From the NCBI RefSeq assembly GCF_001570765.1, contig NZ_BCSH01000019.1, positions 1 to 64,000 on the forward strand: DNA of 64,000 nucleotides. Direction: 5' to 3'. This DNA comes from Nocardiopsis listeri NBRC 13360. Its GTDB lineage: Bacteria > Actinomycetota > Actinomycetes > Streptosporangiales > Streptosporangiaceae. Positions 57,706-58,148 of the stretch are shown piece by piece. A program made the position numbers and the translations under genes. The notes under the pieces were generated by a model. That model had not been told where the DNA came from. It made no database searches and saw only the letters and a program-made list of their open reading frames with translations. Within the stretch, counting starts at the first letter, position 1; every line of letters begins with the position of its first letter.

Positions 57706-57793
57706 AACGGTGTTGCTCCTCGGGAGAGATCAGTGGCACGTGATGTAACGGCCGACAAGGCAAGCCGAAGTCCCGCGACGAGGGGCCGACCTT
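57706..57793 (-). promoter_or_regulatory. leuA attenuator region
   Basis: Between the leader stop and leuA, mutually exclusive pairings are possible. GGCCGCGGCGGGG inside the leader gene can pair with CCCCTCGTCGCGG (around 57773-57785). GTCGGCC also occurs twice as a direct repeat, which would allow alternative partners. There is no U-tract, so control may act on leuA translation rather than termination. Confidence 0.5.
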
Positions 57794-57841
57794 TTAACGA
57801 TCCCCGCCGCGGCCACTAAGGAGGAGCAGCTCGCGCAACAT
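57794..57841 (-). CDS. leuL: leuA leader peptide, 15 aa, leucine-rich
   Basis: ATG at 57841 to TAA at 57794 encodes MLRELLLLSGRGGDR: five leucines, four of them consecutive (CTG CTC CTC CTT). This is the hallmark of ribosome-mediated attenuation of leucine genes. There is no Shine-Dalgarno; TAGCGT (57857-57852, minus strand) ends ten bases before the ATG and could be the -10 box, giving a near-leaderless transcript. Lack of charged tRNA-Leu would stall the ribosome and expose leuA. Confidence 0.8.
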   Translation of the reverse strand: MLRELLLLSGRGGDR

Positions 57842-58148
57842 ATCGATCGTCACGCTAGCAGACGATCACGAGATTTCGACACTCGCTGCTCACATGTTGA
57901 GACAGCACCCAGGTGATCCGAGGCGACGCGAGAGGCTCACAACGATTTGAGATGATCGTTCAAAATGGGTACCTCGACTTCAAGATACAGACGATGAGGG
58001 CTACCCTGGAGGGGAACCCTTCAGTGCTAGGGGGGTCATACGGAGTCCGTCGGCGGAACCCAGGGTGCGGCCAACACCCGAGGCCTCGGCAGACCGGCAA
58101 GCCCGAGTCACCGCAGCGCCGGTACCGCCGACGGACATCCTTCTTCTC
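57842..58148. other. Intergenic region upstream of leuL and downstream of the HATPase-like gene
   Basis: About 300 bp holding the leuL promoter region on the minus strand. A plus-strand frame from ATG 57952 is open but uses A/T-ending codons heavily and is not called. Nothing else recognised; no terminator was found after the gene at 58149. Confidence 0.4.

Follow-up and report, generated by a model that had tools for sequence, protein, structure and literature searches.

How is leuA controlled in the 64,000-nucleotide stretch of DNA analyzed here (the window), and does the leucine-rich short open reading frame (ORF) in front of the gene act as the sensor? A first-pass annotation had assigned positions 57706..57857, a stretch bounded by a -10-like TAGCGT hexamer and by the base that adjoins the leuA start, to a leucine attenuator. 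It described a 15-codon leader with four consecutive Leu codons, pairing between this leader and the leuA ribosome-site region, and the lack of a U-run terminator. These observations were borne out: the leader and its Leu run lie 5' of leuA (Table 1), UGCUCCUC in the run and GAGGAGCA at the ribosome site form 8/8 Watson-Crick pairs, and no terminator-like site was found in 57690..57950 (mean in shuffles, 0.2).

The product of the regulated gene scored 878.7 bits against PRK03739 (cutoff, 455) and 825.8 bits against TIGR00970 (cutoff, 697.4). The leader reads ATG TTG CGC GAG CTG CTC CTC CTT AGT GGC CGC GGC GGG GAT CGT TAA, with a fifth Leu codon (TTG) at codon 2, and ends 88 nt before leuA; the pseudoknot helix of the window copy comprises 7 pairs. 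The window transcript is expected to start at the leader ATG or a few nucleotides from it and hence to be leaderless or nearly so. A generic sigma-70 scan returned no promoter, the TAGCGT box of the window leader included, and Rfam release 15 gave no match to T-box or other leader families in 57600..58100 at E values up to 10; eight related loci likewise contained no Rfam match at the gathering score. The minimum-free-energy fold of 57841..57690 was not unusually stable (z, -1.45; 17 of 200 shuffles were equally good). Since the single-sequence fold of the window is unremarkable, the case rests on comparison.

Table 1. Features of leuA and its leader region in the window, with the strands of the predicted helices
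Feature	Position	Strand	Remarks
leuA, 2-isopropylmalate synthase, 566 aa	56005..57705	(-)	Regulated gene
Leader ORF MLRELLLLSGRGGDR	57794..57841	(-)	ATG at 57841; stop TAA at 57796..57794; 15 codons
Putative sensor run CUG CUC CUC CUU	57818..57829	(-)	4 consecutive Leu codons
-10-like TAGCGT	57852..57857	(-)	10 nt 5' of leader ATG
Base stem, 5' strand UGCUCCUC	57821..57828	(-)	Part of Leu codons; complementary to leuA Shine-Dalgarno
Base stem, 3' strand GAGGAGCA	57714..57721	(-)	Contains leuA Shine-Dalgarno
Hairpin P1, 5' strand CCGCGGCGGGG	57802..57812	(-)	Within leader, 3' of Leu run
Hairpin P1, 3' strand CCUCGUCGCGG	57773..57783	(-)	11 pairs, 2 of them G-U
Pseudoknot helix, 5' strand GGUCGGC	57785..57791	(-)	In P1 loop, directly 3' of leader stop
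Pseudoknot helix, 3' strand GUCGGCC	57750..57756	(-)

An element of this kind has been on record since 2005, when Seliverstov et al. predicted a "LEU element" 5' of leuA in most Actinobacteria, in which a leader with a Leu run is joined by a pseudoknot and by a base stem that pairs the Leu codons with the leuA Shine-Dalgarno sequence (SD) and hides the ribosome site (PMC1262725). The window copy resembles that description in lying directly 5' of leuA and in having a short ORF with a Leu run, a pseudoknot, and a base stem; our helices were derived from the sequences and likened to the 2005 element by its text description. The call of an attenuator can thus be kept, with the corrections that the element was already described and that further helices, namely, the hairpin and the pseudoknot, belong to it. 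Relative to the 2005 study, the present one adds a new genome and 154 nonredundant sequences with controls. The window locus itself looks like an ordinary copy of the known element, and it is the codon-swapped copies considered below that look new. The main text of PMC1262725 contains 0 mentions of leuB, leuCD, or ilvE, so that it covers neither leuB nor leuC copies, and no report of leuB, leuC, or codon-swapped copies was found among the titles and abstract openings listed in searches of the open-access literature.

Two other leaders invite comparison. The LeuL1 leader of Streptomyces lividans leuA (MRFGLLLLSCRGEGL) is reported to be leaderless by RNA-seq and to be followed by no typical Rho-independent terminator (PMC8079986). 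The window leader shares with LeuL1, as described there, its 15 residues, an LLLLS-x-RG core, the position 5' of leuA, and the lack of a detectable terminator, whereas its transcript start is predicted, from the -10-like box 10 nt 5' of the ATG. Poly-cysteine leaderless short ORFs of mycobacteria, said to have been described by Canestrari et al. in 2020, reportedly control downstream translation via ribosome speed. These ORFs, covered in a review (PMC9031893), resemble the window leader in having contiguous codons of one amino acid in a short ORF; the run in the window is leucine rather than cysteine, however, and no hairpin-pseudoknot scaffold is mentioned for the poly-cysteine type in the relevant parts of that review.

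The first-pass annotation had proposed a comparison of leaders in relatives, with the absence of a Leu-rich leader as its set refutation; a short ORF with an LLL-like run was present 5' of leuA in 226 of 239 fetched loci (re-fetched places are among the 239). The 13 others included one cut by a contig edge (L026), three in which the hairpin was kept and the Leu run shortened (L037, L114, and L140), and the second leuA copies L059, L211, L212, L214, L216, L218, L232, L234, and L236, in which no element was seen; as L059 and L216 are one place, these nine loci represent eight distinct places. Removal of loci that shared at least half of their 8-mers with a kept one left a nonredundant set of 154, which entered by having an LLL-like run, such that 226/239 is the unconditional figure.

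Signals of coding were evident throughout this set. The run had 3 codons in 90 loci and 4 codons in 64, and all 462 codons at the three aligned run positions of the 154 loci conformed to CUN, their third base being variable. The run closed with CUU in 143/154, although this codon makes up 0.9% of the Leu codons in these relatives' leuA genes and 3.3% (6/184) in five window ORFs taken as genes. A TANNNT box stood 4 to 11 nt 5' of the chosen start in 127/154 loci; over 200 shuffles, such loci averaged 8.8 and never exceeded 18. When the start was instead defined blind to frame, as the first ATG or GTG 4 to 13 nt past the nearest -10-like hexamer, it shared the reading frame of the Leu codons, with no stop in between, in 131 of the 134 loci that could be scored; a control region farther upstream yielded 2 scorable cases only, and the chance in-frame rate was therefore set at one third. 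The -10-like box was 6 to 10 nt 5' of the start in 128 of these 134 relatives. In four members of family f14 (L158, L165, L176, and L177), the leader stop, UAG, falls within the 5' strand of P1, three codons past the Leu run, and by reading P1 still forms in a shifted register. Since P1 persists despite this early stop in 4/154 loci, the peptide past the run is apparently dispensable and the RNA needed.

The same relatives also gave strong signals of RNA structure, to be read with the proviso that the sequences are related, so that shuffle tests overstate their independence. P1 consists of 11 pairs, the first of them 5 nt past the Leu run. In 76 sequences, 98.9% of its cells were paired and 7 of 11 pairs had changes on both sides (0/500 shuffles as high for either measure); sliding one partner along reduced pairing to 41 to 71%, and RNAalifold recovered the helix unaided. 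When the seven loop-nearest pairs were anchored on the motif in 153 loci (L176 was not anchored), 95.6% were paired, compared with 90.6% (maximum, 92.3%) in 2,000 shuffles. For the pseudoknot, own partners scored 17.97 and exchanged partners 16.41 (n = 147; z, 8.6; 0/5,000 permutations as high), with L053, L058, L207, L158, L165, and L177 omitted from this test and from the model alignment because their hairpin was register shifted or misanchored. Its 3' stretch begins 11 to 17 nt past P1 in 120 of the 147.

The base stem gave a smaller signal. Its own partners averaged -11.1 kcal/mol and exchanged partners -10.0 kcal/mol (n = 154; z, -6.4), and the own pairing surpassed the median exchanged partner in only 88/154 rows and 92/154 columns and the mean synonymous recoding in 88/154. 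This test used chosen starts and narrow segments, and the starts were chosen by SD strength, which favors good SDs but not a match to the own leader; a first version with wide segments and imprecise leuA starts (n = 133) gave -19.0 for own, -17.9 for exchanged, and -17.5 kcal/mol for shuffled partners. Weak stems were found in L204 (-5.0 kcal/mol), L205 (-2.5), L206 (-6.4), L054 (-5.6), L058 (-5.3), and L093 (-5.1), and matched wobble changes in L190 (CUUCUUCUU with GAGAAGAAG), L028 (UGCUGCUGC with GCAGCAGC), and L079 (GGUUCUUCUC with GAGGAGAACC). Across the 154 leuA relatives, covariation was strong for the hairpin and pseudoknot and modest for the base stem.

A covariance model trained on leuA elements only (R1) showed how far the scaffold extends. 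At E ≤ 0.01, R1 matched 144 of the 148 class genomes; these are one sample throughout, and R1 had been trained on many of the leuA elements in it. In a sample of the phylum it matched 24 of 197 genomes at E ≤ 0.001, and 18 of the 24 were from the class, the own genome included. Outside the class there were two strong matches (G298 and G369), both 5' of leuA by reading. A further match, L269, lies 5' of a leuA-like gene, but its ORF runs on without an early stop (hand reading), so that it is at most a candidate. Four phylum matches, L267, L268, L270, and L275 (partial), had E values of 3e-4 to 7e-4 and were set aside because they probably arose by chance. In the own genome the leuA copy alone was significant (E, 1.3e-12; next match, 0.17), and by reading no scaffold was present upstream of its leuB (L312) or leuC (L313).

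Matches away from the principal leuA were of several kinds. Of the non-leuA matches with E < 1e-3, 20 were examined, a set that does not include G058:C2 (beside a second leuA copy), G126:C71, G150:C29, and G168:C66, and matches with E of 1e-3 to 1e-2 were taken only where a second model, R2, found them again. Copies 5' of leuC occurred in five genomes of one family (L281, L282, L293, L294, and L296; leuC was identified by NCBIfam for L294 and by reading for the others). In three genomes, a leuA of the bacterial subfamily lies behind the scaffold (L286 in G071, L287 in G066, and L288 in G069; NCBIfam was applied to L286), and a search of all three for a leuA of the window's type came up empty; in these genomes, the leuA gene appears to have been replaced and the LEU switch kept. 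Seven further loci were second leuA copies with the scaffold (NCBIfam was applied to L299). The LLL run was present in 5/5 leuC copies, 3/3 bacterial-type leuA copies, and 5/7 second leuA copies; the two without it read VRSLL (L290) and RTTVL (L299, in G099), and in L299 the TTVL codons pair with the ribosome-site region over 8 bases. Three f4 loci with the scaffold, L297 (G158), L302 (G167), and L306 (G177), have the codons LVV, LLV, and ALV, respectively, and L297 is followed by a gene for a free-standing LeuA_dimer (allosteric) domain (Pfam, 27.9 bits; cutoff, 24.9). L310 (G132:C9:168935-169014; E, 4.8e-5) has a LEU-type hairpin and pseudoknot without branched-chain codons. The gene next to L310 is transcriptional-regulator-like (Mlc/NagC-like), with leuB about 1.5 kb downstream. 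In the set of non-leuA copies other than those of leuB (n = 18), 0/5,000 permutations scored as high as the own partners of the pseudoknot.

The largest non-leuA group lies 5' of leuB. It was seen in no fewer than 25 of the 147 genomes, and these 25 represent seven families (f1, f8, f9, f17, f22, f26, and f28). The elements were found among the matches listed for R1, which gives 21 of the 25, and for R2, which was trained on 19 of them, and 25/147 is a lower bound; no element was found upstream of leuB in L320 and L321. The five codons before the leuB scaffold read, for example, TVRIL, VFVLI, VLVLI, HIFVL, or QLVVI. Over these five codons, Leu was present in 25/25, Ile in 25/25, Val in 24/25, and the codon GUA, which makes up 1.9% of Val codons in leuA genes, in 23/25, and an LLL run was present in 0/25. 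The corresponding codons of leuA leaders contained Ile in 0/154 and Val in 14/154, 11 of these at a GTG taken as the start. A pure Leu run before leuB ought to be no harder for R1 to detect, yet the 25 include no such copy.

The scaffold of the leuB copies shows the same helices. P1 was 99.5% paired in 19 sequences, with 12 double-changed cells compared with 3.9 in shuffles (0/500), and two of the five covariation measures were weak (3 double-changed pairs, 20/500 shuffles; 5 further pair types, 67/500). The pseudoknot helices diverge yet match, as in GAGAGGCC:GGCCUCUC, GGGCC:GGCCC, and GUCAGCCA:UGGCUGAC, and 0/5,000 permutations scored as high (n = 25). Pairing of the codons with the first ribosome site, as a base stem, was clear by reading in a minority, e.g., L273, L277, L292, L301, L304, and L315. 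The gene 3' of leuB was ilvE by reading in 14 of the 19 loci looked at (two differ, two were too short, and one was ambiguous), and all four candidates tested matched the NCBIfam branched-chain aminotransferase; L284 and L291 have a Val/Ile/Leu-type leader, yet a gene other than ilvE comes next. All three branched-chain amino acids depend on IlvE, whereas leuA and leuC mainly concern leucine. Given the Leu runs before leuA and leuC and the Val/Ile/Leu codons before leuB-ilvE, the identity of the codons tends to follow the product of the operon while the scaffold stays.

Taken together, these results make it quite likely that the window copy is a LEU element that acts as a leucine-responsive translational attenuator of leuA by ribosome stalling. 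Transcription would begin at the leader ATG to give a (near-)leaderless transcript, whose leader a ribosome would read. With Leu-tRNA plentiful, the ribosome would pass the Leu run and leave at the stop, upon which P1 and the pseudoknot could fold and bring the Leu codons beside the leuA SD; pairing between the two would then leave leuA little translated. With Leu-tRNA scarce, the ribosome would stall on the run, where it covers the anti-SD bases together with the beginning of P1, so that the SD would stay open and leuA would be translated. Sensor and blocking strand would thus be the same bases, and the pseudoknot would presumably serve as a clamp that shortens the loop. We infer that the leader is translated, that ribosomes stall on it, that the response runs in this direction, and that control acts on translation and not through Rho-dependent termination. 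With a paired SD and no terminator found, initiation of translation is the most plausible control point. The earlier suggestion of ribosome-mediated control, perhaps at translation, gains support from the strong coding and RNA-structure signals and from the codon difference between leuA and leuB. Weighing against this reading are the base stems, which are weak in part of the leuA set and clear in only a minority of leuB loci, the lack of ilvE next to leuB in L284 and L291, the scaffold copies with other codons (L299, L297, L302, and L306), and the unremarkable fold of the window sequence.

More broadly, a single hairpin-pseudoknot scaffold probably functions in Actinomycetes as a modular, codon-programmable translational attenuator, in which the exchange of a few codons would determine the amino acids sensed: leuA and leuC would use a Leu run, and leuB-ilvE would use Val/Ile/Leu with the rare GUA. 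Its sites would comprise leuA, second leuA copies, leuA of the other subfamily, leuC, leuB (often leuB-ilvE), and the gene for a free-standing LeuA allosteric domain. The natural swap between leuA/leuC and leuB codons on a shared scaffold is a direct comparative argument for ribosomes reading the codons as the sensor. If the scaffold is indeed modular, this would overturn the view, reached in 2005, that something other than the leader codons is the sensor, and swapping codons on a kept scaffold may be a design principle for amino acid sensors in Actinobacteria.

The 2005 authors doubted that the codons were the sensor and preferred a binding protein over leader translation (PMC1262725); the LEU element would then be chiefly a protein-binding site (orthologs of ML1624 were named by Seliverstov et al.), the Leu codons only the anti-SD strand, and the leader no sensor. 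Consistent with such a site, the pseudoknot is more elaborate and conserved than stalling alone needs, and codon mutants without the expected effect are cited, the outcome of earlier mutations in the Streptomyces coelicolor leuA leader being described as "not consistent with classical attenuation" (PMC1262725). Under the stalling model the codon-mutant result is ambiguous because such mutants also alter the anti-SD strand, and the identity of the Leu codons with that strand suggests why simple codon mutants would mislead. A protein site would need neither the frame kept in 131/134 relatives, nor a rare codon fixed at the end of the run, nor Val/Ile/Leu in the leuB copies (Ile in 25/25 versus 0/154). 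The kept frame and the codon difference between leuA and leuB on one scaffold argue against a protein rather than the leader as sensor, and we regard a protein-binding site as quite improbable. The same leader could also work as a transcriptional switch in which stalled ribosomes prevent Rho-dependent termination within it, a mechanism suggested for cys operons that have leaders but no obvious terminator (PMC1262725) and compatible with the failure to find an intrinsic terminator in the window. The pairing of the codon run with the leuA SD, in the window and many relatives, would be needless for control of transcription, however, which makes the Rho-based switch unlikely.

Two further mechanisms fit less well. 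A leucine-binding riboswitch, with the pseudoknot itself as the leucine sensor and an ORF of no consequence, would suit a pseudoknot that adjoins the paired SD, and the riboswitch-like geometry was remarked upon in 2005, but the same source notes no conserved unpaired nucleotides for a pocket (PMC1262725). Frame conservation, rare-codon bias, and the codon swap, moreover, all concern coding, and no Rfam family matched at E values up to 10, so we give a riboswitch almost no credence. The E. coli leu operon attenuator combines tandem, rare Leu codons in its leader with an intrinsic terminator. The window shares the tandem and rare Leu codons, and four in a row just 5' of leuA, in a leader rich in the end product, are what one would expect of classical transcription attenuation as in E. 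coli leu or trp. The stem and U run that define such an attenuator were sought between leader and leuA and not found, in contrast to E. coli, and classical attenuation was set aside as scarcely plausible. Translational attenuation by a stalled ribosome is therefore the reading we prefer.

Minor observations concern the neighborhood of leuB and the rest of the window. A short ORF of about 20 to 45 codons lies just 5' of leuB in L273, L274, L277, L283, L285, L291, L304, L314, and L315, and no Pfam family scored above the cutoff in two examples of such ORFs. Several of them share a motif like ALQEAMDRRD or ALQDAINRR. In the own genome (G000:C27, L312), a short ORF, MYDMIEYPSAPDTDDEIARALQDAINRRA, starts about 215 nt 5' of leuB. 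Elsewhere in the window, Rfam identified two tRNA genes with equal scores on the minus strand, 58 bases apart (25690..25762 and 25821..25893), and a third tRNA at 18934..19007.
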